64,000 nt of DNA from Apoderus coryli (Eukaryota > Arthropoda > Insecta > Coleoptera > Attelabidae), in the NCBI GenBank assembly GCA_911728435.2, contig OU452201.1, forward strand, positions 5,890,001 through 5,954,000, in the 5' to 3' direction. Below, one piece after another: positions 1,132 to 53,621 of this stretch. The notes beneath the pieces are model-generated. The model had not been told where the DNA came from and made no database searches. It saw only the letters and a list, made by a program, of their open reading frames with translations. A program made the position numbers and the translations under genes. Numbering within the stretch: position 1 is the first letter of the stretch; each line of letters opens with the position of its first letter.

Positions 1132-1707
1132 TTATTTTGGTCCATTCGAAGCCGGATTGGGCAAATCCTGCATTGACTTTAAATTTATTTTTCGTAATTT
1201 TTATCTTTTATTAGATACATATTTGAAATTTCACTAATTATTCATTTAGTAATTCGAAATTTCCATTTTAAAACGAAATATTCTATTTAAATATTTAATA
1301 GGGTACATTTCCTTATCGCAATATTTATCACTGCACACATACACAAAGCGTTGTCCACGACATACGTTATTCTTTATTTACTCCACCCGCACGTATAGTT
1401 GTTTCAATTGATATTAAGGATAGTTTGTCTTTGATAGATTAGAAAAAAAAACTGTTTCTTTTCACATTGTTCATTTAATTTTTTACGCGTTTTAGCGACT
1501 CTATATTGTTAAATACGTTAAGCGCGTTTCACACTTTTCAATAGCCCTACGCATTTTCAGTTAATTGTTTAATTTGTTGCGTAGGCAATTACTTTTCTGG
1601 TTTCAATTATCCAGCATACTTAACTGGTTTTTTTAAAAAAAGGGTTCTTGCCATTTATTCAACTCGGTTCTAATAGTTAATTTTTTTTTATTCGTTCATT
1701 AATTGGG

Positions 1708-4700
1708 ATGGCAGCCGCAGAAAAACGTCAACGTTATAAATTATTACGTCAAACGCAGCACCATCGCATGGATGAGGCTTTACAAGTGGCTGAACATGCT
1801 GAAACAGAAAAAGTGCTAATTCCCCTGTTAACACATTACATGGAAGAATTAAATTCGATTAAAGCACAATTCTATGAGTATCACAATAATGTGATTTCCT
1901 TATGCTCGGATGAGACGTTTGATCAGGAAGATAACGCTCGAAAAGCTTTTGATACCGATTTTTTTAAGCTCAAAGCTAAGTATTCTACTTTGACTAGAGT
2001 AGAAGTACAAGCTCCTCCAAACACGGCGGATGAGTCTTTTGTCAATATACCATTACCATCAATAGATATCCCCACTTTTAGCGGCGATGTCATACAATTT
2101 AATTCATTTATTGAATTATTCGACTCTATTGCCGGTAATAATCCTAAGTTGGCTCCTATTCAGAAATATAAATATCTTAAAATGTCCTTACGTGGACCTG
2201 CCTTGCAGGCTATTCAGAACGTTCCTTTTAGTAGTTCGCATTACACTCAAGCTTATGACAAGTTAGTGTCAACTTTTAGCAAGCCTCGGGTTTTAGCCAT
2301 GTCACATTGGGCTGCCATTGAAAGCGCTCCTAAATTGAAAACTGGTTCTTCGGCGGAACTGAAGCAATTGTTAGCAGTTTTTAGTGATCATTTGGATGCG
2401 CTTAAAATCTTAAAATATCCTACCGATCAATGGAATTTGATTCTAGTTTATACGCTTTTAAATAAATTGGATCCTGATACAGCAACCCAATTTAAATTGC
2501 ATCACAATTCCATTGATATTCCAGATTATGTTACATTATTAACATTTCTCACTCAACGGTGCAATGCGTTAGAGGATTATCCAACTCCCCATAATAAAAT
2601 TATCAAAATATCTAAACCGAGCACTTTCTTTCTACAGGCATCTGATATGAATAAATTCGAATGTATTCTTTGTGATTCGGGTCATGTGATTTATAAATGT
2701 CAGGAATTTTTAAAATATTCTCCATCTGATCGTTTCAAATTTATTAAATCTAAGAGCGCCTGCATTAATTGTTTGAGCCGTAGTCACAATACGAAAAAAT
2801 GTCAATCAAATCAAGGATGTCACAAGTGTGGCAAAAAGCACCATACTCTTTTACATTTTTCTGAAAATTCGTATAATCAGACAGATGTTACGCCTTCAGC
2901 CAGTATTTCTGCAACTCCCGCCACACCTTCCAGTTCAAATCAGGATGATGTCACGTGTGTGAATACTACGTTATCTCGCTCTCAAGCTCAAGTTTTGTTG
3001 GCTACTGCTAGAATTGAAATTCTAGATAATTCTGGTAAATTTCAAAATGTACGATGTTTACTTGATACCGGAAGTATGATATCCCTCATTTCGAATAAAG
3101 GTCTTCAACGCTTGGGTCTCAAGCCTCACAAGTCTTCTCTGAAGGTTCAGGGCATAAATTCCATGAATTCCTTTATACAAGGTGGTCATATAAACTTATC
3201 CATTCGCCCTCGTAACACGCCCGCTCTACTACTGAACGTGGACGCATGTGTTATTGAGAAAATATGCGATAAACTTCCTTATCAATCTGTTTCGAATGTC
3301 AATTGGCATCATATTAAGGATCTGACTTTGGCTGATCCTATGTTTAATGAACCTGGATCCATTGATCTCCTACTAGGTGCCGATATCTTGTCACAAATAA
3401 TTTTAAACAATCATATCATTGGAAAAGATTCGGAACCTATGGCCCTAAATACAATTTTTGGATATGTTTTGATGGGAAAGTATGCATCTAGTGATAATTA
3501 CAGCAATACCCTGTCACTATTTTGCACCATTTGCAATTCAAATATCGAGGATCAAGTTAAACAATTTTGGGAACTTGATGAGATTCCTGAAAATAAGTGC
3601 ATGTCCTCGGATGACGAACAATGTGAAAAACTTTTCACTACAAATACGAAATTTTTAAATGGCCATTTTACGGTTTCCTTGCCATTTAAATCTGATCCGC
3701 CTATGTTTCCAGCTAGTCGTGAGTTAGCTGTTAAAAGATTTCTAGGTTTAGAAAAAAGACTTATTGCGAATTCCGATACTTATGTTCAATACAAATTATT
3801 CATGCAAGAGTATCTGGATTTGGGTCATATGACTCGAGTCACCGCTCCGCACTCTCCGTTTTACTATTATATACCACACCATTGTGTTTTACGTCCAGAT
3901 AGTTTATCCACCAAGCTTCGTGTTGTTTTCAACGCATCCGCCAAAAGTGCAGGTGAATCTTCTTTGAATGACTGCCTTTTTGTCGGCCCTAAACTCCAAC
4001 AAGATATTTTCACACTTTTGTTGAATTTTCGCTTATATCCTTATGTCCTAACCTCGGATATAAAAATGATGTACCGTCAAATTTATATTTCTGCGTCTCA
4101 AAGAGACTTTCAGCGCATCATTTGGCGCTTTTCGCCTACTGAACCGCTCCAAGATTATTGTCTTAATACTGTCACGTATGGATTATCTTCATCTCCATAC
4201 CTTGCTCTTCGTACATTACTACATCTTGCTGATATCTTCCAAGATAAATTCCCATACGCAAGCGACGCGTTACGCCACGGCATGTATGTTGATGATTTAG
4301 TGATTTCATGTCCATCAGCTGAACATGCTCGTCTAACAAAGTCACAACTTATCTCTGTTATGAAATTGGGAGGTTTTGAGCTTCGGAAATGGTCAACTAA
4401 TGCCCCCGAACTCCTGAATGATCTTCCTTCAGCCCATTTAGCACTGGATTCTCGTTCATTTGATTCTGAGGATGATCTCTGTTTGAAGGTGCTTGGTCTA
4501 AAATGGATTCCATCTTCGGACATCTTCACGTTTTCGGTTAAACCTGTGAATCAAATCTGTACAAAACGCAATATTTTATCTAACCTTGCTCGAATATTTG
4601 ACCCTTTGGGCATACTGTCACCGGTCACGTTTCTGATAAAACATCTCATTCAACAAATATGGTCATTAAAATTAGCCTGGGATGACACCCCTCCTTCTTA

Positions 4701-6822
4701 TATATCTCGTTTATGGGATAAATATCAACAAGAATTTCCTCTCTTGGAAAATTTGTCTTTGCCTCGACAATTGGCTCCTAACTCATTTGAGTCTTGCGAA
4801 ATTCATTGTTTCGCTGACGCTAGTGAAAGGGGTTATTGTGCGGTTGTCTATTTTGTATTTGAAGATAAAGGCGGCGCATTTTCCACTTACTTTGTGTGTT
4901 CCAAAGCAAAAGTAGCACCATTGAAAGGACTTACAATTCCGCGGTTGGAATTGTGTGCGGCTGTTTTAGCTTCAAAGCTTGTCACTTTTGTTCAAAATGT
5001 CTATACCAGCAAAATATCCGTTACTAAAACGTATTGTTGGTCCGATTCGCGTATTTGTCTTGCCTGGATAAAGTCTGATGCCTCACGTTGGAAAACCTTT
5101 GTATCCAACCGGGTATCTTGTATTCAACAAGTAACGCCGCCCGATTGGTGGCATTATGTTCGCTCTGAACAGAATCCTGCAGACCTTGGTTCTCGAGGCC
5201 TTCTACCCCATGACTTGTTAGCTAATGATCTATGGTGGACGGGACCTTCCTTTCTAAGTAATTTAGATCGCAACTGGTCTTCCAATATGTCAAATGTGCT
5301 ATGTCCTAATGTGCTTGACGAGGAGAAGAAAGCAACCGTTATGCTAGTTACCGATCCTCCAAGTTTGTTTATTCAGCTTCTTAATGTAACTTCATATTCT
5401 ACGTTGTTTAAAACGCAACGTGTTTTAGCTTATGTCCTTCGTTTTATACATAATGCTAAATTTTCAGATAAGAAAAGAACCGGTTTCCTTTCTTATTGGG
5501 AGTTACATACCGCACTGTTGGTAATCGCTAAGCATAACCAAAACTTACATTTTTCGGAAGAGATTCAAATGCTGAAATCAGGTAAGCTGTTACCTAAGCT
5601 GTTGAGAAAACTCGCTCTATTTCTTGATGAATCTGAAATTCTCCGCGTGGGTGGTCGACTTAAACATTCCCCCATATGTTATGATCGGAAGCATCCGATT
5701 TTAGTACCTTCTAGATGCCGTTTTACTCACTTGTTAATTGAGCACCTTCATACCAAATATATGCATGCCGGAATACAAACAGTTCAATGTTTACTTTCGC
5801 AGCAATTTTGGATTATTTCTTGCAAGCGTGAGGTTCGTCATGTCTTAGCCAAATGTCTGCAATGTTGGAAAACAAATCCTAAGCCTGTACAACCCCCCTT
5901 TATGGGCAACTTACCTTCACCTCGAGTTTCCTCTTCGATCAAATGCTTTCTGCACTCGGGAGTCGACTTTGCAGGTCCCTTTAAAGTTACAATGGGAAAG
6001 TTTCGTGGAGTTAAATCCTCCAAATGTTATATTTGCATTTTTATTTGTTTGGCAACCAAAGCCGTTCATCTTGAACTTGCTTCGGATCTTTCCGCAGACT
6101 GTTTTTTGGCTGCGTTTAAAAGATTCATCGCACGCCGAGGTCGCTGTACTGATATGTACAGTGACAGAGGTACAAATTTCGTTAGTGCTGACAAGCAACT
6201 CAAGGAAGCAGTGAGAATAATAGCTTCTCAGGAAGGCATCTCTTGGCATTTTAACCCTCCAGCAGGCCCACATTTTGGTGGTTTATGGGAAGCTGCTGTT
6301 AAAAACGTAAAGACTCACTTATTTCGAGTTATAGGGGATCAAATTCTAACATATGAGGAATTTATAACATTCCTTAGTCAAACTGAAGCCGTGATCAATT
6401 CGCGCCCATTGACTCAAATTAGTACAGATCCCAATGATCTTGGTGTACTGACTCCTGGTCACTTCCTTACCTTCGATCACTTAACCGCCCCTCCTGATTT
6501 AGATTTAGCTCATATTCCACATAATAGACTCTCTCGCTGGCAACTTCTGTCACGTCTACATCAGCAATTTTGGCGGAGGTGGTCTAATGAATATCTTCAT
6601 ACCCTTCATCAAAGGCATAAGTGGAATACTGATACTCCTTCTGTGGAGCAGGGCACTTTAGTTCTAATCAAAGATGAAAACGCTCCTCCGTTGAAATGGG
6701 TGAAAGCTCGAGTGACCGAACTTTTTCCGGGTAGTGATGGGAGAGTGCGTGTGGTGTCGGTCCGTACTTCAAATGGCGTCTTCAGACGGCCAGTATCGAA
6801 GTTGTGTCCGCTACCTATCTGA
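1708..6822 (+). CDS. BEL/Pao gag-pol polyprotein, intact, 1704 aa
   Basis: A single uninterrupted frame encodes the polyprotein of a BEL/Pao retrotransposon. Residues 1 to about 400 are gag-like and contain Cys/His zinc-knuckle clusters from Cys319 to about 385. The aspartic protease motif LLDTGS has its catalytic Asp at 453. The reverse transcriptase has the YVDD active site at 860-863. The RNase H motif FADAS has Asp1037. The integrase has an H/C zinc-binding region near 1350-1380 and catalytic residues Asp1420, Asp1486 (SDRGTNF) and Glu1528 (GGLWEAAVKN). No env-like frame follows. The start ATG is the first in frame after the leader. Every catalytic motif is present and there is no stop or frameshift, which is uncommon for a genomic copy and agrees with the near-identical LTRs. 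Confidence 0.95.
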   Translation: MAAAEKRQRYKLLRQTQHHRMDEALQVAEHAETEKVLIPLLTHYMEELNSIKAQFYEYHNNVISLCSDETFDQEDNARKAFDTDFFKLKAKYSTLTRVEVQAPPNTADESFVNIPLPSIDIPTFSGDVIQFNSFIELFDSIAGNNPKLAPIQKYKYLKMSLRGPALQAIQNVPFSSSHYTQAYDKLVSTFSKPRVLAMSHWAAIESAPKLKTGSSAELKQLLAVFSDHLDALKILKYPTDQWNLILVYTLLNKLDPDTATQFKLHHNSIDIPDYVTLLTFLTQRCNALEDYPTPHNKIIKISKPSTFFLQASDMNKFECILCDSGHVIYKCQEFLKYSPSDRFKFIKSKSACINCLSRSHNTKKCQSNQGCHKCGKKHHTLLHFSENSYNQTDVTPSASISATPATPSSSNQDDVTCVNTTLSRSQAQVLLATARIEILDNSGKFQNVRCLLDTGSMISLISNKGLQRLGLKPHKSSLKVQGINSMNSFIQGGHINLSIRPRNTPALLLNVDACVIEKICDKLPYQSVSNVNWHHIKDLTLADPMFNEPGSIDLLLGADILSQIILNNHIIGKDSEPMALNTIFGYVLMGKYASSDNYSNTLSLFCTICNSNIEDQVKQFWELDEIPENKCMSSDDEQCEKLFTTNTKFLNGHFTVSLPFKSDPPMFPASRELAVKRFLGLEKRLIANSDTYVQYKLFMQEYLDLGHMTRVTAPHSPFYYYIPHHCVLRPDSLSTKLRVVFNASAKSAGESSLNDCLFVGPKLQQDIFTLLLNFRLYPYVLTSDIKMMYRQIYISASQRDFQRIIWRFSPTEPLQDYCLNTVTYGLSSSPYLALRTLLHLADIFQDKFPYASDALRHGMYVDDLVISCPSAEHARLTKSQLISVMKLGGFELRKWSTNAPELLNDLPSAHLALDSRSFDSEDDLCLKVLGLKWIPSSDIFTFSVKPVNQICTKRNILSNLARIFDPLGILSPVTFLIKHLIQQIWSLKLAWDDTPPSYISRLWDKYQQEFPLLENLSLPRQLAPNSFESCEIHCFADASERGYCAVVYFVFEDKGGAFSTYFVCSKAKVAPLKGLTIPRLELCAAVLASKLVTFVQNVYTSKISVTKTYCWSDSRICLAWIKSDASRWKTFVSNRVSCIQQVTPPDWWHYVRSEQNPADLGSRGLLPHDLLANDLWWTGPSFLSNLDRNWSSNMSNVLCPNVLDEEKKATVMLVTDPPSLFIQLLNVTSYSTLFKTQRVLAYVLRFIHNAKFSDKKRTGFLSYWELHTALLVIAKHNQNLHFSEEIQMLKSGKLLPKLLRKLALFLDESEILRVGGRLKHSPICYDRKHPILVPSRCRFTHLLIEHLHTKYMHAGIQTVQCLLSQQFWIISCKREVRHVLAKCLQCWKTNPKPVQPPFMGNLPSPRVSSSIKCFLHSGVDFAGPFKVTMGKFRGVKSSKCYICIFICLATKAVHLELASDLSADCFLAAFKRFIARRGRCTDMYSDRGTNFVSADKQLKEAVRIIASQEGISWHFNPPAGPHFGGLWEAAVKNVKTHLFRVIGDQILTYEEFITFLSQTEAVINSRPLTQISTDPNDLGVLTPGHFLTFDHLTAPPDLDLAHIPHNRLSRWQLLSRLHQQFWRRWSNEYLHTLHQRHKWNTDTPSVEQGTLVLIKDENAPPLKWVKARVTELFPGSDGRVRVVSVRTSNGVFRRPVSKLCPLPI

Positions 6823-12289: not shown

Positions 12290-14818
12290 TCAATTGCAAT
12301 CTAAAAATCCATTTCAATCAACTTATGTTAATACAATATAACTTGGCTACTTATGATTTTGATGTATTACTTAATAATATTTAAGCTTTTGTATTTTTAC
12401 TGTAGAAAATTAATAAAAATATTTATTTTAACAAATTTAGTTTGTATAATTTATTAGATTTTTCAACCAATCCCAAACAAAATTTAAAACAAGTAGTATT
12501 CCACTAATTGTACTTTTACCTCCCGCCTACACGAACTACCGTCATATACATACATTTAATATATCCAGAGCCATGTTCCCCTCATACCAAACTTCTTATC
12601 TCTACTCCTTGTTCCTTTGAGCATTATCCTTAAATAAGAGTTTTGCTAAAGTTCAGGATACATCAAAGTAAACCGAATCTGCACTTACACTTTGAAATAC
12701 AAATTTATTTCAAACTTAAATTTTGAATACACTTTGCAATTAGGAGAAATAAATTACTTTATTTAAAGGACAACAAAACATTGCGAAACCTCAAACATCA
12801 TAAACTTCAACTTTCATAAGCTCTTTCTTTCTGGATCTGTGCAATTCACTACCCATAAGAGTCGTTGTAGAACATTTTTAACTTTTTAAGGTTCAGGTGA
12901 TTAGATATTGGGACACAGTATAGGTGAGGTAAATATAAAAAAAAATATTATAGATTTTGGTATAAAAGACTTTCATCTGAAAGCACTGTATTAATCAGAA
13001 TTTCTAATTATAATTATCGGTGGGATCGTGGCATTTTTGGGGTACTCGAAACAATTATTCTTTATTGCAAGAGTATAAAAATATACATTATCTATCGTAC
13101 TCCTAGCGTTGATTGTTAAATGATTCATAAGAAACACATGTTGCCACAGAAACAAATTATCTCTTCGAATACCCCTTTACACGTTCTGACCATACTTGGT
13201 AATACCAAACATCATCCTCCCAAATAAATCCTTCATCCCCACTCATCCAAACCTCCCGCCTACTCCAATATGGAATATTAATTCACAAACACGTCTTTGA
13301 CGTCACAAAACAAGGAAAGAGATATTCCCGAACATTTCCCAAAACTACACACGATCAATAAATATCCTCCAACCGATAGCACACGAACTACTACGGGGGT
13401 AGTATCATCATCGTTCTATGGAATTCAGTTCAACCCCAATCGCTTGCGTTTTAACTAAACTGTATTAATTTCAGTCTGGACATATATTGGAAGATTTGAT
13501 TAAATTATTTTGTAAATAAAATACAAAAATACAGTTGATTTTAAAACGAAATTAATGAAGCTAATTACTAATGAGTCCTCGCGCGTTTAGAACTCGTAAT
13601 ACACCCTCACAGAAAACATCTTTACGGTGGGGTGACTGTTGTAATTTTTACGGATAATTTTGAAAATATATTAAAATTGTTGTTATATTAATAATAAAGA
13701 GTTTATAGTATCTAAAAAATCTTTAATAAAAATAAAGTTAACAATATATAAATTTTATATTTTTAAATGTTGAGTGAATTAATGTACGAGTACCTAATTA
13801 AAGAATAATCAAATTTATTTAAATTCAATTCATGTTGAGCGTGAATATGAACTGGTTTTTGGAATGAATAATGCCGAAGGTTGAAGTGTAAGAGTAAAGG
13901 TTAAAAGCGCAATAAATAAGGTAAAGATCAAAAAATATTTCAATATAGGTACCAAAATAAATCAATGAAACAGTGCAAATCAAGCCGGAGATTCTTTAAT
14001 AGACCAAATGGAGAGTTATGCATTTAATTTTAGTAAATTAAATACCTACTAACAGCAATACTAAATTTAAATAAAGCTGTTGATTCGGCCCCCAATGTTA
14101 AATTAATAGGTAGTACTTGTCCAATGCTTCTTTTGTCATATTCAAATATTTAGCAACGAACTAAGGAAGATTACAATTTAAAATTAATTATGAATATTGG
14201 TTTAATAGTAAATTACAAAGAAATAAAGGAAAGCGCGACGAAAACTAATGTTCCCTTTTCCTCTAAGAAAACACCAAAAAGCCATTGAGAGCGATTCTTA
14301 GCTTCATAATCTTGTTTAGGAAACTTGACAGTTGACTCAAATTGACAAATAAGAGAATTCCTGGAAATAATTGAAAATAAAATCATAAAATAGTAAAACG
14401 AAATTTACATAGGAAACCTTAATTTAGAATACAGTCGAGTGGGACCTCCCAATCAATTGAGAACAGTTCTCTACCTTTTTCTCATTGACAATATTAAAGA
14501 ATCCAAGTCTTCTTTTAAACGAAATTGTCTCCGGCTTTGCACTGCCTCTATATCTTCGAACATAATATAACATGTGCGATCCAAGCCCGATGGGATTAAG
14601 GTCTAGCAATTGTGCTGACCCAGATCAAACATTAATTGTTATATGGTCCCAGTAGGTCCCTCTTCAGAGGAAATTTTTACGATTTTCTGAGAAAATTAAT
14701 TCTGAAATGATATAAAGACAATTGATTTCTGCTATAATCTGTTGTGACATACGTTTAGTTTAAGCACCAAAGTTATTTAGACAAGGAAAGCTTATAAATT
14801 TTATTTTACGTTTTTTAG
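12288..14818. other. Intergenic upstream of ChT, no gene seen
   Basis: No coding sequence is supported. Part of the region (about 12510-12660 and 13180-13400) is rich in A and C on this strand and poor in T and G. A palindromic TGACGTCA lies at 13298-13305, 1.6 kb before the ChT start codon. A good splice acceptor (TTTTTTAG ending at 14818) suggests that the ChT start exon begins at 14819 and that a noncoding first exon lies somewhere upstream in this stretch. Confidence 0.45.
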
Positions 14819-14870
14819 AAGGATCCCGATAAGAAAAATACACGAACATAACGTAATAAAAGAAGCAAGA

Positions 14871-17800
14871 ATGATTAACGTAGCTGGGGTGATTTCAATA
14901 ATTATATTCTACGTTTTGATTTTGGGGGTTGGAATATGGGCTGCAAGAAAAAAAGAAAGTGGCAATGATTCTGAAGAAGAAGTGATGTTAGCAGGTCGAA
15001 ACATAGGACTGTTTGTTGGTATATTTACTATGACAGGTAAAGCCATTTTAAAATAAAAATTGACTAAATATCTTTGGCTCTTTTCGAAATGACAGTTTGA
15101 TGATAAAATATTAACAAGTTACTCTGCGATGACCATTCATTGTTTTATAATTTTGCAGCTACCTGGGTTGGAGGTGGATACATCAATGGCACTGCGGAGG
15201 CTGTCTATACTTCTGGTCTGGTTTGGTGTCAAGCGCCATTCGGCTATTCGTTGTCACTAGTATTTGGTGGGATATTTTTCGCAAACAAAATGCGCCAGCA
15301 AGGCTACATTACTATGTTGGATCCGTTACAGGATAATTTCGGAGAACGAATGGGTGGACTATTATTTTTGCCAGCGCTTTGCGGCGAGGTCTTTTGGGCT
15401 GCTGGAATTTTAGCTGCTTTGGGTAAGGAATGTCGCTCAGTAATTTTAATTAAATGTTTCGCAATTATTTTAACTGGAAAAATTTGCTGAACAACATGGA
15501 GAAATTGATTAACACAAATTGTGTTAAAATCAAAATATACTAATAAAATCATTTAATAAAGGACGATAAGGCCAAAATTAAGAAACATTTATTTGAGATT
15601 AAGTTTGGATAAAATGGTCTTCATATTTAATGATAATTCTTTGTCTTTTTTGGCGTAATCAGAAGTGTTATTACCAAGTTTATTTTACTCACGTGGCGGC
15701 ATCTATGCCAAGGCATAATAAATACATTTTACTGTATATGCGCAACGGATTTGCAAACACGTACCTTATTCTTTCATAAACTGGTAATTCCATAAGCGTT
15801 CTCATAGATGTCTATAGAAACATTAAAGCGAACTTATTTAAATTAATTTTACTTAAAACACATAATTTATTGACGTTAATCAGCAATTTATTATTTTTAA
15901 ACTCCAGTTCCATATAGACTTTCCTTACTTGCAAACCAATTACCGATACAGGGTACCAAAAAGTCACTGGCGTCTTCAGAGGGCAGATTAAATTTGATCA
16001 ATATCGCGAAAACAATAATCAATGAAACCATATTTTATAGTTGACTGGATGTAACTGTGTGATATAATTTATCAAACGTATCGATTAATTCTACAGGGGC
16101 AACTTTAAGTGTAATTATCGATATGGACCATCGAACCAGCGTCATATTCAGTGCATGTATAGCGGTTCTATACACTTTGTTTGGAGGATTGTACTCAGTC
16201 GCGTACACGGACGTTATTCAATTGTTTTGTATATTCATCGGATTATGGATGTGTATACCATTCGCATGGACTAGTGAGCATGTGGCACCATTGAGCTCAA
16301 TGGATCATGACTGGATAGGACACGTAAATATTGTTTAAAAAATATATTCCAACAAACTTAATCACTGATGTCAACATATTTTTTTTTTTTAGATTAAAAG
16401 TGAAGAACTGCCGTCTTACATTGACTATGGATTATTACTGATATTTGGCGGAATCCCTTGGCAAGTATATTTTCAACGAGTCCTTTCAAGTAAATCTGCA
16501 GGGAGAGCTCAAATATTGAGCTATGTAGCAGCTGTTGGCTGTGTTTTTATGGCGATACCACCAGTGCTTATTGGAGCAATAGCTAAAGCCACAGGTACAA
16601 ATATTTATTGAAGTAAAATATGGCTTCAATTTGTCCACAATTTCGAATAATATATATTTGTTATTACCCTCAGTCTATTAATATTTAGTGATAGTAGGTC
16701 AATTACTATCTTATACGATGCGGCCTTCTTATAAAGAGGTCCATGGTTCCTATTTGAGTAGTTTATCCCGGTATTCTCTGTTACTATCCTGCCTTGTAGT
16801 ATTCCGAGGGTTTGTCCTGGTCCTGGCGGTTCTCGTGACTTTACGAGTAGGTTAACTTTTTCATACCGTGATGTCCTGGTACCCAAAATTTTAGTTTAAC
16901 CCACATTCTTCTCTATAAGGGCATCGATGCATTTCTGCTGCTTAAGCCTGTATGAGAATTAAACATAGAATCTACCTAACTACAAATGTTAACGATATTG
17001 AATCGACAATCTTGAGAAAAAGTGCATTAAAAGTCTGTTTCTAATTATTAAAGGAATCAAACACCTCTTGAGATCATGTTAAGCATTTGCAATTGGAGTC
17101 AGTCAATCGTGAGTACTGAATTCAGCGTAAAGGGCAGAGCTCACGAAAAGAAACTAGAAATTGGAGTAGTTTATGTAACACAATAATCTTTAAACAAAAT
17201 TGCATAGTCCTGATAAAATTCAATCAATTTTGAGTAGGAATCTTGAAAGTATGATAACAGCGAAATATACAGGATGTGCGGAAATGTCTGGCCGAAAATA
17301 TGATGAGTTAGCTCAACTGAATTGCTTGGTTTGGGCGCTAGAGGGCTTTAGAAGTGAAGTGAATAATCCAAGTATTAGCATAGTTGAAGTATAGGTATAA
17401 GATTTCGCCACCAAACCCATGGTAAATTTAATATCGAATCAACGGTAATGCAAGTTATAAGCAGGTTTCAACAATAACTATATGGTCATCATCAGTACAT
17501 GGAATCAAAATATTTAATTCTAAATTCTATTGTTTCCTTTACAAGGAATACTATTTCTTATATCCCCGTATATTATTTACACTTACTTATCAAGTCCACG
17601 TAGAGGCTCATGAATAATATAAACTAATTCATTTAGGTCAATAATATTAGCCTTGATATTATTTTTACTCCAAACTTCCCTAATTTGTTTACCTACACCA
17701 CTACCTACACGAAATATCGGAACTCGATTACCCATGTACGATAATTTTAGGAATATAAAGGGTGTCCCAAAATTAACGCAAGAAAAACAAAACAAATCGA

Positions 17801-19407
17801 CAGCTGACAGTTAGAACAACGTGTCTTCCAGGAACCTCAATTCGGCGTCGTGGACAAGAATTGCAAATTGCAAGAAGCTCTCTATAGCGTATACTCACTA
17901 AAGATATGTGTCTCCATGCTTACAAAATTCAATTAACACATCAACTGAAGCCTAATGACCATGCACTGCGAAAAGAATGGATTATTCAGCATCAACAAAT
18001 GGATGCGGATTTTTTGAGCAAAAACTTACAATCAAAATACTAAAAGCTGTGTTTTCTATTTAATTCAAATATTGCGTTAACTTTGAGACACCCTATATAA
18101 AGTAGAATTTATAGAATTTTCACTGAATTTTACATATTAACTTGATTCAATGTAAAATGTTTCCCTTGTTTTAGCCTGGAACGAAACAGCGTACAAAGGT
18201 CCCTATCCACTAACTCAGGACGAAACTGGCATGATTCTTCCAATGGTACTGCAATACCTGACACCAGATTTTGTGTCGTTTTTCGGTTTAGGTGCTGTTT
18301 CTGCTGCTGTTATGTCATCAGCAGACTCCAGTGTTTTATCAGCCAGTTCAATGTTTGCCAGAAATGTTTATAAATTAATTTTCCGACAAAAAGCATCTGA
18401 AATGGAGATAATCTGGGTTATGCGTGTGTCTATTTTAATTGTGGGTTTTTTAGCTACCGTTATGGCGTTGACTATACCATCAATCTATGGATTATGGTAA
18501 GTACTATAAGTTTTTTTCAATGAATAAAGAATAACGACTAAGGATCCATTAATTGATGATGGCTATTTTAATTCAAGGTCAATGTGTTCAGATCTAGTCT
18601 ACGTTATCCTATTTCCACAACTTCTGATGGTCGTCCATTTTAAGGATTCCTGCAATACATATGGCAGCCTTGCAGCATATATCATAGCGTTTCTAGTACG
18701 AATTAGTGGAGGAGAACCTTTAATGCATCTACCACCCTTGATTAAATTTCCTGGTTATGATGAGGAAACACAAACACAAAGGTATGCTAAACTGGAACAC
18801 CAAACTATCGATATATCTATTATTTTCCTGCAGGTTTCCATTCCGAACAATGGCGATGCTTATGTCATTAATAACTTTGATCGGTGTTTCCTGGGGAACC
18901 AAACACGTGTTTGAATCAGGAAAACTAGCACCTGGCTATGATTTCTTCCACTGCGTAGTTAATATTCCTGAAGATATACAGCGGTAAGTTCTACAACTGC
19001 AAACAGTGTACCATTCTTTTTTTATAATTCATCCTAGGTTTAAAATTGTATCTAAAAGTGTATCCCTCTGTTGGAAAAGAGTCTAAAATAACTCCCATGT
19101 TACGTTTTTTAGAGTTGGTGATCCAGCAGAAGAAGGCGAGCAAATGTCCGTGATGGCTTCAGGACCAATGGGGCGCATGTATGGTGCTGCTACCCTTGTA
19201 GGTAAAGATGAACGCAACGGTCGCATAAATCCTGCCCTAGAAGCAGATGACGATATTCCTGCAGCGGAAATTGATAGGATTCGCAGTTCAATATCAGCTG
19301 GTGGAGGTGGAGGTGGTTCAGCTGCAATGGTTGGAGCTGGCTCGCGTGGGGTTATGCCTATTGGGGGCAATAATAATTTAATTGAGAATTCGCAGACAAA
19401 GCTGTAA
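14871..19407 (+). CDS. ChT: High-affinity choline transporter (SLC5A7 family)
   Basis: Eight exons: 14871-15036, 15159-15422, 16097-16323, 16393-16594, 18175-18496, 18578-18781, 18834-18983 and 19113-19407. They splice in frame into 609 residues; human CHT is about 580. The product is the sodium-coupled transporter that takes choline into cholinergic terminals. The N-terminal membrane helix, [46 protein letters not shown] and [20 protein letters not shown] (the sodium-solute symporter signature) match the CHT subfamily rather than other SLC5 carriers. An extracellular glycosylation site (WNETAY) is kept. Introns range from 52 bp (18782-18833) to 1580 bp (16595-18174), the latter loaded with transposon remnants. 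The C-terminal cytoplasmic tail has a Gly-rich run not seen in vertebrates. The gene is on the same strand as the ChAT/VAChT locus 26 kb downstream. Confidence 0.97.
16650..16960 (-). pseudogene. Possible LINE RNase H remnant inside ChT intron 4
   Basis: On the minus strand a short stretch reads [13 protein letters not shown], close to the WVPGH-x-G motif of the RNase H domain in I/jockey-type retrotransposons. The rest is too decayed to align by eye. It sits antisense within the longest ChT intron. The call rests on one motif. Confidence 0.35.
17760..18096 (+). mobile_element. Decayed Tc1/mariner-like DNA transposon in ChT intron 4
   Basis: The segment is flanked by inverted ends GGGTGTCCCAAAATTAACGC (17760-17779) and, reversed, TTGCGTTAACTTTGAGACACCC (18073-18094). 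Inside, 17912-18043 encodes [20 protein letters not shown] followed by KEW and DADF motifs, which I recognise from mariner-like transposases of insects. The frame is broken upstream and most of the catalytic domain is missing. It is a non-autonomous remnant. Confidence 0.65.
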
Positions 19408-23042: not shown

Positions 23043-26000
23043 TTAATAAGAATATCCACCATTACTGGCGTAACCTTGTCCACCTCCATTACCACCTCCA
23101 TTGCTGTATCCACCTCCATTACTATATCCACCTCCACTGCTGTATCCACCGCCGTTACCACCTCCGCTACTGTAACCACCAAAATCACCACCTCCACCGG
23201 AACCAAATGATGAGAAATCGCTACCGCCTGAGCTAAATCCACCACTGCTGTAACCACCTCCATTACTTGGGGCGCCATAGGAGCTTGATGGAGCACTTAT
23301 GGATGGAGATCCGTAACTGCTTGATGGTTTTGATGAGGGCGCTCCGTAACTACTTGAAGGTTTTGAAGGCGCTCCATAGCTACTGGATGGTCTTGACGGA
23401 GATGGTTTTGAAGGTGCACCGTAGCTGCTGGATGGTTTTGACGGGGCACCGTAGCTACTTGAAGGCTTTGAAGGGGCTCCATAACTGGATGATGGTCGGA
23501 AACCGCCATTACCACGTGACGGGGCACCATAGCTGCTCGACGGACGACTGGGTTTCGATGATGGCGCACCATAAGATGAAGATGGGGCTGCTGGAGTGCC
23601 ATAACTGGTAGAGGGTGGTAGGTAACCAGACGATGGGGAACCTCCTCCGTTAGATGGAGCTCCGTAGCTGGAAGATGGAGCTCCTCCACCGAATCCACCT
23701 CCTGAACCACCTCCAAATGACGGGGCTCCATAACTGCTGGATGGGGCGCCACCGCCTGATGGAGCACCATAGGTGCTTGAGGGTGAACCGCCGCCTCCAG
23801 ATGGTGCTCCGTAGCTAGAGGATGGAGCACCTCCACCTATACATGTAATAAATATTGTTAAATTCATAATAATAATTTTGTATTATTATAAAGCTTACCG
23901 AAAGAGCCACCAAATCCCCCACCATTGCTGTATCCTCCACCGCCACCACCTGTTGGGGCTCCATAACTGCTTGATGGAGCACCGCCGCCCCCAGATGGCG
24001 CGCCGTAGCTAGAGGATGGAGCGCCTCCACCTGCAAATGTTATAATTGAATTGTTAAATTTAGAATAAAACACTATTACGAAACATAATAATCTAAAAAT
24101 TCATAAATCATGCTAGAGCAGTAATACATGCTTACCAAAAGAGCTTCCACCACCACCAAATCCTCCGCCGCTTCCAAATGATGGAGCTCCATAACTGCTC
24201 GATGGGCTGCCGCCTCCGAATCCACCACCTCCTCCGAATCCACCTCCTCCTCCACTGCTGTAGCCTCCACCATTACCGCCTCCTCCCCCTGAAGGTGGTA
24301 AGTAGCTTCCACTTAGTGGAGCTAAAAAATTTTGAAACTACGTTAAAATAAAATAATTGTAAAACACACTTCAGTACCCTTAAAAATGTTCCTTTAAGGC
24401 ACTGGTGTTTTTAGAGTCGTTCCCTTCGGGTACATATTAAAATAAATAAAATAAAATTGTTGACGGCACCAATGAGCAAACAACCTTAAATTTAAAACCT
24501 TGTTATTAAAGGCTAAACGAGAAAACAGCATGAAGTTACTGTAATAATTACAACAATAATGTCAAAGGAAAAACAGGTTGATGTCCAATGTGAATATAAA
24601 TTTCTTTTTAAGTTATTTTTAACCTACCAACAAAAGAAATGCATTGTATTCTTCTTATCGAAAAATTCAATGAAGTAATAAACAGCAATTACGCTAATTA
24701 TCTATCTATAGTAAATACTTACCATCGCGTTTCTGCAAATGACCCGCAAACGATGTTGCAATTAAACAGCATAGTGTCAAGGCACGACTCTAAATTGAAA
24801 CAGAAATTAAATTAATAAATTAGGGTAGTCGATGTCCCGATGTGGCACAATTCTATAAAATTTCTTACTGACAAACGATACTGAACTATGTGAATTTTAA
24901 AGCTAATTTCTATTAAGTAGTAGTGATTACAAATTTTCATTACGACATTTCGTTTTTGAAAAACCATCATCAACTTGGTTTTTTTTTTTAATTTTAAATT
25001 CAAAAATAGACGGTTTATCACATGTTATGCTTTAAACAAGTTTTCAGTGTTTTTAGCTGTTATTTAAAATTATTCAAGAAAAATCGCCATAGTTTGGCAC
25101 TTATCTGACTGAATGCAGAGTTGTAGGTTTTGCAAAAACATTATTTCGTCGTTACTGAGAATTATTTATTATTATTTGACTATTTATTTCTGGCTCAGTA
25201 CAACATTTCATTCTGTACGCTTTTTTTGAAATTTTTGTGCTTTTTGAAGTTATTAAAAAAATGCCTTTCTCAGATGAATATTTTACGCAAAATAAGTGCC
25301 AAACTATGGTGATTTTACTTGAATAATTTTAAATATCAGCTAAAAACACTTAAAACCTATTTGAATTGAAAATGGCTTTAAATTAAACGATAAAAAATCG
25401 AGGCCTGTATTTGAAAATATAATTATTAATTATTACCTAGTGTTTACGCCCCTAAGATTTAATTATAAAATATACATGGACATAGATACTTTTAATTTAA
25501 AACAAAACAGTGAATGACCTCGTGAATAAATTTTTGATATGCGTTATTCACTAAATTTTAAGAATTTATATTGTCCCTATTATACGCAACACTAATCTTC
25601 GAAAAGGTGTTCCGATAATATAGAAAACCTAAAGACCCATGTTGGTCCCCTTGGGATTTTATCTGAAAAGTGTTGTAGCATCTGTATGGGAAATTTAAAA
25701 ATTTATCATCTCTTTATTCGTATCTATAAATTTCAATATTTTATATATAGAGCTATAAATAAAAACGACCAAATTAATGTCCCACAACTCATTATTCAAA
25801 TCAACTCTTGGACAAACAATTTAGATGATTTATTATTTCAGTGTCCAAATACCGCCTTTATGGCTGTCAGTCATTTCATGAAGTTTAACCCCTTCTGGTA
25901 GTTCTGGGTCTATTTTCGTCACCTCACTTATATCTTCTTGTATCTCCTGCGATTGAATTCTAAAATGTATATTTTGCTATCACTTATCAACGTTCGAATT

Positions 26001-44973: not shown

Positions 44974-45289
44974 GCCTTTCATTTCAATATCTTCAATATT
45001 ATTTCTAATTTTAATTTAATAAATGGAATGTGAATAATATTTATCTTATTCTATCCCAATAACCGAAAACAACCACATGTTATTTCAATTTTGCCATGCC
45101 ATAATCCTTTTACACAATATTAAATTTGAAAACCAACAATAATCCTAATCTTATTAATGAAAAACTTGGAACTTGGTGCCCCTACAACCCCTTAAAGTAA
45201 AACACTCAATGCCGCCAATGCCACCCCCATATAGCAAAATCATACTCATAAAAAATTTATACCACCTCCTCTAGGCATCATAGCCAGTG

Positions 45290-45673
45290 GATTCCACCAA
45301 TAGAGCTATGGTGCTGGTGACGTCACAGCTGGCAGAACACCGCCCCCAGGGCAATTGCGGTCTACGCCGTCTCGCAGCCGTCTCCGGCCGATCGAAGATA
45401 CAGCGCCGCGCTACCGCTGGTCACAAGACCTCAAACGATTGCCGAGTGCCGAATGTGTCTGCGTAAATAAATACACACTTTTATTTTTGAGTGTGTGTGG
45501 GGAGCGGTTTTGAGGACACAGTGTTTTAATTTTTTTTTTAAACGTGACAAATAATTTTGGGTAAACAAAGTTTGTTAGTGTTGTGTGCATTTTTTGAAGT
45601 TTCAGTAAAATTGTGCTATCATTACTATTATTAGTTCAGGTCCGGACTAGGATTGTCAACTGTCAATTTTGAG
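45290..45673 (+). promoter_or_regulatory. GC-rich promoter and candidate shared ChAT/VAChT first exon
   Basis: In AT-rich surroundings, 45300-45440 is strikingly GC- and CpG-rich. It contains a palindromic TGACGTCA (45318-45325), an E-box CAGCTG directly after it, and a CCGCCCCC box (about 45340). A splice donor GAG|GTTAGT at 45673/45674 could end a noncoding first exon. It lies 0.8 kb before the ChAT N-terminal exon and 5 kb before VAChT. In insects and vertebrates the two genes share upstream promoter sequence and, in Drosophila, a first exon. The exact start site is not visible. A 50-codon open frame from ATG 45308 is probably incidental. Confidence 0.5.
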
Positions 45674-46507
45674 GTTAGTTTATTTTTCACATACATTTAT
45701 AATTATAATTTGGAACTTGAAATAGTATTCAGTGGCTTAAGGTTTTCCTTTGAGATAAAATTTAAAACTGGTTAAAAGTAACAAGCCAGAAGGACTCAAC
45801 CCTGTCGAATAAGGAATCTCAGAAGCAAGAGGAGTTTGGCCAATGTTTATAAACAGTGATGAGTGACATCTCGGATTGTTGTGATGTAACACTCAATCGC
45901 CAGCTATCGAGGAGGCAAATTAGCATCCTTTTGACTTGCTCATTCTTAATTTCTTGACTTTGAAGAAACTCGGAACCACCGAAATGTATGCCATCCGTTT
46001 AAAAAAAATTCTTGGAGTTTGGAATAGATTTTATTCATCACAAATCATGATCGTCAGTCAATTCAAGGCCTTGCTCTGAATGGTTCATCTTTCATTGCCT
46101 CCATTGCTCCGAAAATGACTTAGTCCATCCAGAAACGCCGGGTTATTTATCAAACATTTTGCCATACTGCGAAGTTTGATAACACATTACCTTTCAGGAA
46201 AATAGTTGCTACGGACAGCCAAATGATCCTCACGAACTCAATCTTGTACTGAAGGTGTCTCATATATACCTTGCGCGAAGTTCCTTTTTTGCAGTGTTGC
46301 CGTATCAAACGCTAAATTACCAATCACTTCAGTATGTACCTCGTATTACTCAACGAGCTCATATTATGTAGTTCCCGTGCTGTTTTCAACCATTTTTTGA
46401 GTTCTGAATTACAATTACTGCAAATTGAACACTGTGCAATGATTTTGAATTTTGAATTTGAGGGCATTTTTAGCGAATTGCTAAGAGGTCTTTTCTTTTT
46501 ATTACAG

Positions 46508-46740
46508 TGAAATACGCTCGAGTCTTAAACATTGACAGGATCTGGCCAAACCATACGTTAGAAAACGCGAGTGTTTTGTTTTTGTCAATTGTGCTAAACA
46601 TATACGGTTTCGTCTTGCTGTCAACGTGGAGTCGTTGCGACAAACGGGCCCCACGGCCTCTTTTAGCTCGTTCGGTGGTCGTGTGACGAATTTTAAAGGA
46701 TTCCTCGCTACAAGAATAGGATCAGCATTACCTGACACAG
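46508..46740 (+). CDS. ChAT: Choline acetyltransferase N-terminal exon, no ATG, probable GTG start
   Basis: A strong acceptor (TTTTCTTTTTATTACAG, ending 46507) and a consensus donor (CACAG|GTAAGT at 46740/46741) define this exon. One frame encodes GGRVTNFKGFLATRIGSALP followed by DTG at the exon end. This aligns with the N-terminus of Drosophila ChAT, which has RVVSNLRGFLTHRLSN and then DTGW. The frame is closed upstream by TGA at 46533-46535, and there is no ATG in any frame of the exon. GTG at 46626-46628 sits in a strong context (CAAC GTG G). Drosophila ChAT is reported to start at a non-AUG codon, as I recall. The coding part would be 46626-46740, ending in phase 1, which suits a following Gly-Trp. 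The enzyme makes acetylcholine from choline and acetyl-CoA. The other exons are not in the window. Confidence 0.75.
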
Positions 46741-50593: not shown

Positions 50594-50744
50594 GTTTGAA
50601 TCAGAGATGGCACTGCGTTATACCCTCAACACAAACCACACCCCAGATCAAAAAAACCAACGAAACGAATGCTACTACGTATTAAAGATGTTTTAAAACT
50701 AAAAATTCACGACTAATATATAAGTAAGAAGTGTATAACTCAAG
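50594..50744 (+). promoter_or_regulatory. VAChT 5' leader with a 29-codon upstream ORF
   Basis: The exon begins after the acceptor at 50593. An upstream ATG at 50607 in fair context (AGAGATGG) opens a 29-codon frame that stops at 50694-50696, 48 bases before the VAChT ATG. Such a frame would be expected to lower or regulate VAChT translation. The acceptor implies an upstream exon, presumably the shared one near 45.6 kb. Confidence 0.6.
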
Positions 50745-53621
50745 ATGACGTCATCAATACCATTCCAATTCAGCGAAATCCGCGAGATCGTGTGGGCGAA
50801 ATTGCAGGAACCTCGATCGCAACGGAAACTTGTGCTCGTGATCGTATCGATAGCTCTGCTGCTAGATAATATGTTATATATGGTAATTGTGCCGATTATA
50901 CCGGATTATCTGCGAATGATCGGTGCGTACCAAGATGATCGTGTACAGACGCAATCGTTTCCGGGAAACGACACCGCGATACCGGTACATCACGACCACC
51001 ATGGACAGGACTCGGCTACCGGCATCCTCTTCGCGTCCAAAGCCATCGTCCAACTCATGGTCAACCCGTTCTCGGGCGCGGCGATCGACCGAATCGGTTA
51101 CGATATACCGATGATGATCGGACTGTCCATAATGTTCATGTCAACGGCGCTGTTCGCATGCGGTCGCAGTTACGGTCTCCTGTTCTTCGCCAGAAGTCTA
51201 CAGGTATGCAAAAAAAAAGAAATTTGTTGTCACATTTAATATAAACACGCATTATATTAGGGCGTCGGTTCAGCGTTCGCAGACACAGCAGGACTGGCAA
51301 TGATAGCCGACCGATTCACGGAAGAAAACGAACGTTCGAAAGCTTTGGGCATCGCACTAGCTTTCATCAGTTTCGGGTGTCTAGTGGCGCCCCCATTCGG
51401 AGGCGCACTCTTCCAATTCGCAGGCAAAGAGGTCCCGTTCCTAGTGCTGGCGTTCGTCTGCTTAATCGACGGGTTCATGCTTTTGCTGGTAAGTCACTGA
51501 ACAATAATCTTTGAGGTAAGAGTCGCTCGTTACATAATGTAACAAGACTTTAAGTTATGTTGGAAATTTGCTTCACACTACCATGATTTCACCAGACGGG
51601 CCGTTTCGGTGATCCACAACTCATCAAGTGGTGGTCGGCAAGCAATGTGATTCAAATTTCCAACATTTACAAAGAGTTCAAGTACTAGCACGAGATACCG
51701 AATGATAACAAGATATATGTGGCGACATCTAGTGTGAGCCGGCAATTTGCCAGCAATAATAACAGATTGATTAGAGAAACTTCAACTCTTATACGATGTG
51801 TTGAAGAAAATGTAGGCCCGGTATAGAGCATCTTTATATTTAATTATTCATTGAAAATTGTTTTCGTTTCTTGATCTCAAAGTTGTTTAATAAATTACTT
51901 GATAATATATTTTATTTATTAATAAATCCAACGTTTCAAATTCGAATAATTCATAAACGGTTAAATTTAGGTATATGAATTATGATTGGAATTTTATGAG
52001 GAATTGAAAAATAAAATTATATATGAGGTGATCTATTCAGAAAAAATAAGCTTTTCTTTCGATTCTTTTAGAATTTTGTAAAGAAGTTCACTTTATCGTT
52101 GGAGTACAGTGGGTCAATAACAAAGCAAACAGTAACGTAAACTTATATATATTTCATCAAAATCACCTCACGTCCACTAAACTCAATTTGACTTAACTTC
52201 AACTTCAACCTAATTTCAAAACTATGGATTAAAGCTCTAGAGACTGTTTTTAGTGAAACTTTGACTGCGACTGAAAATAAAACTTACAATTCTGTAACTA
52301 TGCTCGTATTCCTTCACCAAGATCTAAAAGACAGTCAGTTCTAAATTACTATCTTGAGGTTCTCGTTTCATTCAGGTTGTAGAACGAAATCAAAAATAAT
52401 TAAAATTTATATTTAAAATATCTCATAGCCAAACAGCTATCTCCAATTACTGTCTTATTACAGGTGATGAAACCTTTAAAACAACAATTGAAAGACGCCC
52501 AAGTTTCGAAACCACCTTCAGTGCCCATATGGCGACTATTCATGGACCCATATATAGCCGTATGCTCCGGCGCTCTAATGATGTCAAACGTGGCATTGGC
52601 ATTCCTCGAGCCAACAATGTCCTTATGGATGGAAGACAATATCACAACAGACAATTGGAAAATCGGTAAATAATTTTAATTCTATACTCACCTTCTTAGT
52701 TTATGCTATTTATACAGTCCCAGTCACTGACTAACCCGGTACAATAACTGAACATGTTAATGAGACTAAATAATAAAATACCTTTCAGGTATGGTATGGC
52801 TTCCAGCATTTTTCCCACACGTCGCAGGTGTTATCATCACCGTTTACGCCGCAAAAAAATACCCACATTATCAGTGGCTAATGGCCGCTTGTGGGCTAGC
52901 GTTCGAAGGACTGTGCTGCTTCATAATCCCATTCGCAACCTCGTACAAAGGGTTGATGGTACCAATATGCGGCATTTGCTTCGGCATCGCGTTAATCGAT
53001 ACCGCACTATTGCCAACTCTCGGATATCTAGTTGACGTACGATACGTGTCGGTTTACGGAAGCATCTACGCTATCGCCGATATTTCATACTCTGTTGCGT
53101 ACGCTATCGGACCAATAATAGCTGGCGGTGTTGTTGAATCTATCGGATTTACCGCATTAAACTTCGGTATCGCTTTCTCTAATCTACTCTATGCACCAGT
53201 GTTAATATATTTAAAACACATCTACGATTTCAAACCGTTTGAAAACGAAGCAAATATCCTCATGAGCGATCCACCAAATAAAGAATATCAAACATATTCA
53301 CTGCAGGAACAAAAAATCGTTCAAAATGAAGACCTAACACAAAACCATTTAGAATACAAACAGCAGGAAACATATCTGGATCAGGATATGAGTTACAATA
53401 CTTCAACGTATAATCAAATGCCAGCAAACGAATCATATCAGTACCAGGATATGAATAGTGGATATCAACCACAAACTCCCAGATATGGTACTGGTACTGG
53501 AAGGACGTTACCGCAGCAACCGGTGGCACCGTCATCTCCAGCGAACCCAGTAAATCCGTTTAGACAAGGTGGTGTTAGTGTTGCCCCCACTGTGAGCAAC
53601 CCTTTTAGGCAAGGGATGTAA
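50745..53621 (+). CDS. VAChT: Vesicular acetylcholine transporter
   Basis: Four coding exons, 50745-51203, 51261-51488, 52464-52665 and 52789-53621, splice in frame into 573 residues; the Drosophila protein is about 580. It is a 12-helix major facilitator that exchanges vesicular protons for cytoplasmic acetylcholine. Helix 1 ([20 protein letters not shown]) carries the essential Asp41. The first lumenal loop has an Asn75 glycosylation sequon and a conserved [48 protein letters not shown] and [20 protein letters not shown] are highly conserved in the family. The cytoplasmic C-terminus (about residue 460 on) is rich in Gln, Pro, Tyr and Asn, as in other insects. The gene lies inside a ChAT intron on the same strand. 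A polyadenylation signal lies at 53792. Confidence 0.97.
51557..51666 (-). ncRNA. Hairpin with full-size hammerhead-like core in VAChT intron 2
   Basis: Perfect 14-base inverted ends (ATGTTGGAAATTTG and complement) close a 110-base hairpin. On the minus strand its apex reads CACCA, CTTGATGA, an imperfect stem II (GTTGTGGATCAC), CGAAACGGCCCGTC, and TGGTG. This is a type I hammerhead layout with stem I CACCA/TGGTG and a minimal stem III (ACG-GCC-CGT). The core has one extra T (CTTGATGA for CTGATGA), so activity is doubtful. It is antisense to VAChT. Confidence 0.55.

Follow-up and report, generated by a model that had tools for sequence, protein, structure and literature searches.

A probable GTG start codon for ChAT in the beetle Apoderus coryli

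Introduction

ChAT defines cholinergic neurons, and the Drosophila gene stands in the literature as a case of translation from a non-AUG codon (PMC4528330, in a passage citing Sugihara, Andrisani and Salvaterra 1990, J Biol Chem 265:21714-21719), as the first-pass annotation of the present locus had said; the title of the 1990 work, as cited there, adds that the full-length RNA is translated inefficiently. Further fly genes listed in the same passage as having non-AUG starts are ewg, Eip74EF, Akt1 and Fmr1, the Fmr1 case being a CUG extension, and the A. coryli gene described below resembles them, as they are presented there, in its candidate near-cognate start, its lack of a suitable AUG and the use of conservation or context as support (PMC4528330). 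Outside flies, no non-AUG ChAT start was found among the titles and abstract openings of the matches listed from the openly licensed PMC literature.

The closest described loci also share an arrangement of genes. Drosophila VAChT sits within the first intron of ChAT, and a transcript common to both genes has been put forward, according to the portions available of PMC5342825 and PMC5057162. In the accessible part of the account of the Ixodes cholinergic locus, an 82-bp exon 1 shared by the two genes is confirmed by RT-PCR and a legend marks ATG initiation codons (PMC7524744). The available portions of PMC5413067, PMC6404611, PMC2373871 and PMC3341389 hold nothing on a shared ChAT/VAChT exon.

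The ChAT gene of A. coryli follows that of Drosophila in having an N-terminal exon, then a VAChT-bearing intron, then an exon opening with GW[KR][DE]S, and it matches Ixodes, as far as that locus is described in the accessible text, in carrying the VAChT coding region inside ChAT intron 1 on the same strand. It differs from Ixodes in that its exon 1 is free of ATG and is a candidate shared exon at most, and from Drosophila in that an in-frame TGA is seen upstream of the proposed start, the beetle case being known from sequence alone. The fly kind of start is already known; what is new is its probable conservation in beetles, together with an out-of-frame AUG in exon 2 that might catch ribosomes which have passed the GUG.

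The ChAT gene of Apoderus coryli

The window analysed is a stretch of 64,000 nucleotides (assembly GCA_911728435.2, contig OU452201.1, positions 5,890,001 to 5,954,000 of the forward strand) from a genome of 428 Mb in 129 contigs, and all coordinates are counted from its first base. The ChAT exons were located through open frames and a motif search; the motif, modelled on the fly ChAT N-terminus, served as a lead, and the exon was later matched by Tribolium and Photinus proteins. The assembled product has 714 residues, is assigned by Pfam to PF00755 (E 9.7e-171) and aligns at 61-76% identity with seven beetle ChATs. The gene comprises 11 exons, with GT-AG introns throughout to exon 11. A maximum-likelihood tree built on 36 ChAT rows (A. 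coryli, 31 beetles and four other insects) groups it, as sister, with seven weevil-type beetles, namely Cylas, Anthonomus, Rhynchophorus, Hypothenemus, Ceutorhynchus, Euwallacea and Dendroctonus, with support of 99/92. ChAT exon 1, VAChT and ChAT exon 2 follow one another on one strand, exon 2 lying beyond the window at 71615 on the window scale, 24.9 kb downstream.

46508..46740, plus strand: ChAT exon 1, the first coding exon found; 233 nt, ATG-free, donor in phase 1
50745..53621, plus strand: VAChT coding region inside ChAT intron 1, in at least two exon blocks, 50745 to ~51200 and ~52776 to 53621

Exon 1 joins exon 2 in frame, and the resulting sequence ALPDTG/WRESLLSLPKK (the slash marks a junction here and in the splice sites below) is identical in Tribolium across the exon 1/exon 2 boundary, which bears out the initial identification of the exon as the ChAT N-terminus.

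An N-terminal exon without ATG

Exon 1 is bounded by the acceptor gtcttttctttttattacag/TG and the donor ACAG/gtaagt, and it holds the following features.

46533..46535, plus strand: in-frame TGA, separated by 30 codons from the GTG at 46626
46542..46544, plus strand: CTG, an alternative near-cognate start (caggatCTGgc, G at -3, G at +4) that would add 28 residues
46626..46628, plus strand: GTG, the proposed ChAT start (gtcaacGTGga, A at -3, G at +4)
46626..46740, plus strand: proposed coding part of exon 1, VESLRQTGPTASFSSFGGRVTNFKGFLATRIGSALPDT plus the first base of a Gly codon

No ATG occurs in any plus-strand frame of 46508-46740, as first read, and the TGA is confirmed both by translation and in the sequence. 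Dinucleotide shuffles gave an expectation of 2.87 ATGs for the exon and a probability of 0.029 for none, and 2.7% of all 233-nt stretches in the window are ATG-free, so that the absence is by itself only moderately unusual. Each of the other ten ChAT exons has an ATG in some frame, and the ATG-to-ATG interval around exon 1 ranks seventh of 1100 in the window.

A true start ATG in the next ChAT exon was looked for and is absent, as exons 2 and 3 both lack an in-frame ATG. The first in-frame ATG of the gene lies in exon 4 (NDMYLNYR), at about residue 144 of 714 and inside PF00755. The first AUG of any frame from exon 1 onward is formed by bases 2-4 of exon 2 (CACAG/GATGG); it is out of frame, stands in a good context and opens a dead-end ORF of 89 codons that overlaps the ChAT frame. 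As read from the genomic sequence, then, the gene is ChAT, its splicing keeps the frame, exons 1-3 (exon 1 taken from its acceptor onward) hold no usable in-frame ATG and an in-frame stop lies upstream.

Where coding begins

The position at which coding begins was assessed with a codon score that contrasts the usage in VAChT and ChAT exons 2-11 with nearby noncoding DNA; its training set is small (1110 codons, including one stop) and leaves exon 1 out. The 30 codons from the TGA to the GTG look noncoding (z 0.37; 35% of random open stretches score as high). From the GTG onward, 38 codons look coding (z 2.86; 1.5% as high). Shifted by +1, the frame scores 0.06 before the GTG and 0.183 after it, where it contains two stops and the right frame reaches 0.261, so part of the coding signal is composition; the frame shifted by +2 scores -0.146 on both sides. 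When the start was allowed to float, the best-scoring suffix began at 46617 (10.4 bits) and the second best at 46626 (9.9 bits), and the suffix from the CTG reached 2.0 bits.

Protein similarity marks nearly the same boundary. After the GTG, the peptide resembles that of Photinus (z 6.7) and Tribolium (z 3.4), and before it no similarity to either was found (z -1.35 and 1.14, respectively); the best segment shared with Photinus starts exactly at the GTG-encoded Val when the two Val are set in register. By codon usage and similarity, the coding signal and the conservation thus set in at GTG 46626 or no more than 9 bases away, and not at the CTG. The favourable context noted at the outset for the GTG is indeed present (A at -3, G at +4), and initiation at this codon is supported further by four Drosophila models that begin with Val. 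The first-pass annotation had called the CTG at 46542 a weaker alternative, and this stands for coding signal and conservation, both of which favour the GTG; it does not stand for context, which with G at -3 and +4 is not weak. RNA structure as an enhancer of the start was considered and rejected, since four folds around the GTG gave no unusual signal (z 1.09, 0.37, -0.06 and -0.61).

Exon 1 in other insects

Three protein searches yielded 121 proteins, the last contributing the best 120 of its 148 matches. A query with Tribolium ChAT residues 66-150 matched Tribolium and Photinus alone, and the wider query, residues 90-330, was the one that gave the 148 matches. Among the matches listed, the exon-1 peptide was recognised by motif or by eye in 11 of the 121 proteins, belonging to three beetles, six Drosophila and two Lepidoptera. 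Counted by hand, only 3 of the 31 named beetle ChAT models among these matches carry it, the public proteins being clustered at 90% identity, so that other isoforms may exist beyond this count. Many insect ChAT models lack the N-terminal exon or have another in its place.

None of the 11 models bearing exon 1 has a Met between the candidate Val and the DT of the conserved peptide, although that of Ostrinia begins inside this stretch and covers only part of it. The models of D. setifemur, D. immigrans, D. rubida and D. sulfurigaster, all flagged as partial, start with VASNE; those of D. gunungcola and D. guanche extend further upstream and are alike only from SA[SK]GAN/VASNE onward (here the slash precedes the candidate Val). 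The Drosophila start codon, which we take to be GUG, is backed here by the models that begin with V. A. coryli resembles Drosophila in the candidate Val start with a G-starting codon next, and D. gunungcola and D. guanche in the Asn that precedes the Val. The N-terminus up to DT measures 38 residues in A. coryli and 59 in Drosophila, and automatic alignment leaves the two Val unmatched.

Among beetles, Val-Glu is found in A. coryli (VN/VESL), Tribolium (GT/VETR) and Photinus (GA/VENR). The butterfly Epargyreus has LI/VEDE, its Val chosen by eye where another would fit too, and the partial model of the weevil Anthonomus has no Met in its exon-1 part and a Val (VA/VAAQ) likewise picked by eye from among several that fit. 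The distance from Val to Gly-Pro is 7 residues in A. coryli and Photinus and 8 in Tribolium, and automatic alignments place these Val in different columns, the beetles differing by one residue. With no column common to the Val, and with a longer Drosophila N-terminus that defies alignment at the level of single residues, calling them the same codon means placing them by hand. The comparison across insects that had been called for, made here with protein models, upholds the absence of Met between the Val and DT in the 11 models but not a single column for the Val. The GTG codon was seen as DNA in A. coryli only, the Val elsewhere being read from proteins; where the neighbours of such a Val are visible, the preceding codon begins with a purine and the following one with G, so that -3 and +4 are favourable whatever the third positions.

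The models of Tribolium and Photinus have an in-frame ATG upstream of the Val, by 74 and 28 residues, and the two are weakly alike before it (z 2.5, with 26 of 1000 shuffles as good). Some beetles may therefore use an AUG or an extended form, unless these upstream ATGs are constructs of the gene finders, and the likeness itself may reflect either a conserved leader or a real extension. A GTG-type ChAT start is probably conserved in beetles, and the odd start of the fly gene is probably common to other insects and often missed by annotation; if true, this would explain why the N-termini of insect ChATs are so often missing or mutually unlike in annotation. Many decapod crustacean ChAT models begin with M[ATSG]SPQPS, which suggests an ordinary AUG start in that group.

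VAChT and a possible shared leader

The first VAChT block matches solved VAChT structures (E 2.1e-34); the second was recognised by eye, Pfam giving no family for it. Three further features bear on the 5' ends of the two genes.

50594..50744, plus strand: 5' leader portion of the VAChT exon, with acceptor tttcacag/GTTTGAATC
50607..50696, plus strand: upstream ORF in the VAChT leader, 29 codons, its AUG in a good context (TCAGAGATGG)
45453..45843, plus strand: possible ATG-free upstream leader exon, the interval between two adjacent ATGs

Splice acceptors were scored with a small matrix built from 11 other acceptors of the ChAT/VAChT locus, in which the acceptor at 50594, itself included in the matrix, scores 11.3. 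A good acceptor at this position is compatible with an exon 1 common to ChAT and VAChT mRNAs. If exon 1 were joined to it, the GTG frame would meet a stop before the VAChT ATG, and the upstream ORF ends 48 bases before the VAChT start.

The interval 45453-45843 spans 390 nt and is the third longest among the 1100 inter-ATG intervals of the window. That exon 1 and this interval form one leader purged of ATG is only a suggestion. A GC-rich and CpG-rich putative promoter at ~45260-45460 adjoins the interval, the GC content being 0.47-0.52 and the CpG observed/expected ratio 0.89-1.21 in two 300-nt windows covering 45150-45599.

Alternative explanations

The reading that best fits these data is that 46508-46740 is the first ChAT coding exon and that translation starts at GTG 46626, which we consider quite probable. 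An ATG could instead be supplied by an upstream or alternative first exon, spliced past the TGA or straight to exon 2. In support of this, 28 of the 31 named beetle models among the matches listed (hand count) lack the exon-1 peptide and have other N-termini, and the 24.9-kb intron 1 might hold other first exons. Those other N-termini are mostly mutually unlike, and some look by eye like intron read into exon 3 (MVNIKFLG/EEKLPKLP), as would be expected from gene finders forced to find an ATG; the exon-1 peptide, by contrast, is recognisable in beetles, flies and Lepidoptera. An upstream ATG exon entering after the TGA was sought through the acceptor scores: the acceptor at 46508 scores 12.4, the highest of 12 (the remaining 11 range from 3.9 to 11.8), and exceeds by more than 9 bits the nine AGs in exon 1 past the TGA, none of which scores above 3.0. 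Splicing past the TGA is thus unlikely, although the AG before 46667, at 3.0, comes near the weakest real acceptor of the gene at 3.9, a gap so small that the scores are not final. Taken as a whole, an ATG from another first exon is an unlikely explanation.

A start at CTG 46542, giving a product 28 residues longer either alone or beside the GTG form, draws on the usual rank of CTG as the most efficient of the near-cognate codons, on its purine at -3 and G at +4, and on its being reached first by scanning ribosomes; the stretch that it would add has neither the coding signal nor the likeness to Photinus and Tribolium that set in at the GTG, and we regard such a start as quite improbable. Still less credible is a shorter ChAT begun at a downstream AUG, with exon 1 as 5' UTR in A. 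coryli: the models of Schistocerca, Culicoides and Bemisia do open with a Met that seems to lie inside the exon 2 peptide (MTLPKR, MNLPKK and MSLPKR), but in A. coryli exons 2 and 3 offer no Met, the ATG of exon 4 falls in the catalytic domain after out-of-frame AUGs, and the exon 1 peptide is conserved, making this very unlikely. Compatible with a GTG start is the idea that exon 1 is ATG-free mainly as a leader of VAChT and that the GTG start is a by-product. The position of VAChT in ChAT intron 1, as in Drosophila, where the available portions of PMC5342825 and PMC5057162 propose a common transcript, agrees with it, as does the stop that the GTG frame would meet ahead of the VAChT ATG. At 50607, however, the VAChT exon itself holds an upstream AUG in a good context, so the leader is not AUG-free, and an absence of ATG that spares VAChT is not well supported; as the main cause it is rather unlikely.

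Possible mechanism and significance

Under the preferred reading, translation would start at GTG 46626 much as at the reported non-AUG start of Drosophila ChAT, the initiator Met-tRNA reading this near-cognate codon in the context AAC GTG G (A at -3, G at +4). Scanning ribosomes would initiate there with partial efficiency, and those passing the GUG would be captured by the out-of-frame AUG of exon 2 in its good context, in which case ChAT output would follow the rate of GUG initiation. Several other fly non-AUG starts produce extended or alternative isoforms, whereas in A. coryli the non-AUG codon would be the sole start of an essential enzyme. With less confidence, a low or adjustable rate might be kept because ChAT shares a transcription unit with VAChT, and also because ChAT protein must stay absent in some of the cells that carry the RNA. 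Regulation of ChAT through the GUG start, a low or controlled rate of translation having been suggested in the first-pass annotation, is no more than plausible.

A more far-reaching proposal is that the GUG was already present in the common ancestor of beetles and flies, or earlier, and serves as a translational gate. Exon 1 would be a shared ChAT/VAChT leader, and the weak GUG, with the out-of-frame AUG of exon 2 next in the ChAT mRNA, would let start-codon stringency decide whether a neuron carrying RNA of the cholinergic locus makes ChAT protein; this is tentative and we hold it to be rather unlikely in its full form. Were it true, the gate would help to explain ChAT transcription with no detectable protein in many non-cholinergic or immature fly neurons. 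ChAT RNA without ChAT protein is described in flies in the accessible parts of PMC6504232, PMC10234549 and PMC11251722, the last citing inhibited protein synthesis for fly ChAT. RNA without protein could also come from nuclear retention or RNA decay, neither of which needs the GUG. If beetles and flies share the GUG, an essential enzyme has retained a weak start for a very long time, which is unlikely to be accidental, and the change of GUG to AUG would offer a one-codon handle on the fly puzzle of ChAT RNA without protein.

Neighbouring features of the window

A CHT-like gene lies on the same strand as ChAT, some 27 kb upstream of its exon 1. Its open frames, at 14781-18914 on the plus strand, are those of a high-affinity choline transporter (SLC5A7/CHT-like); the PDB match of the frame 18156-18497 is High affinity choline transporter 1 (E 7.7e-42), and both this frame and 15107-15487 match the SSF family in Pfam. 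The proximity of this gene to ChAT and VAChT means that genes for choline uptake, acetylcholine synthesis and vesicle loading are clustered. On the minus strand, 23043-23882 is an open frame with many SSYGAPS-type repeats that Pfam assigns to Mucin-like PF16058 (E 4.2e-14), its product being perhaps a structural or cuticle-type protein. An open frame of 1713 codons at 1681-6822 on the plus strand resembles, by eye, a retrotransposon polyprotein.
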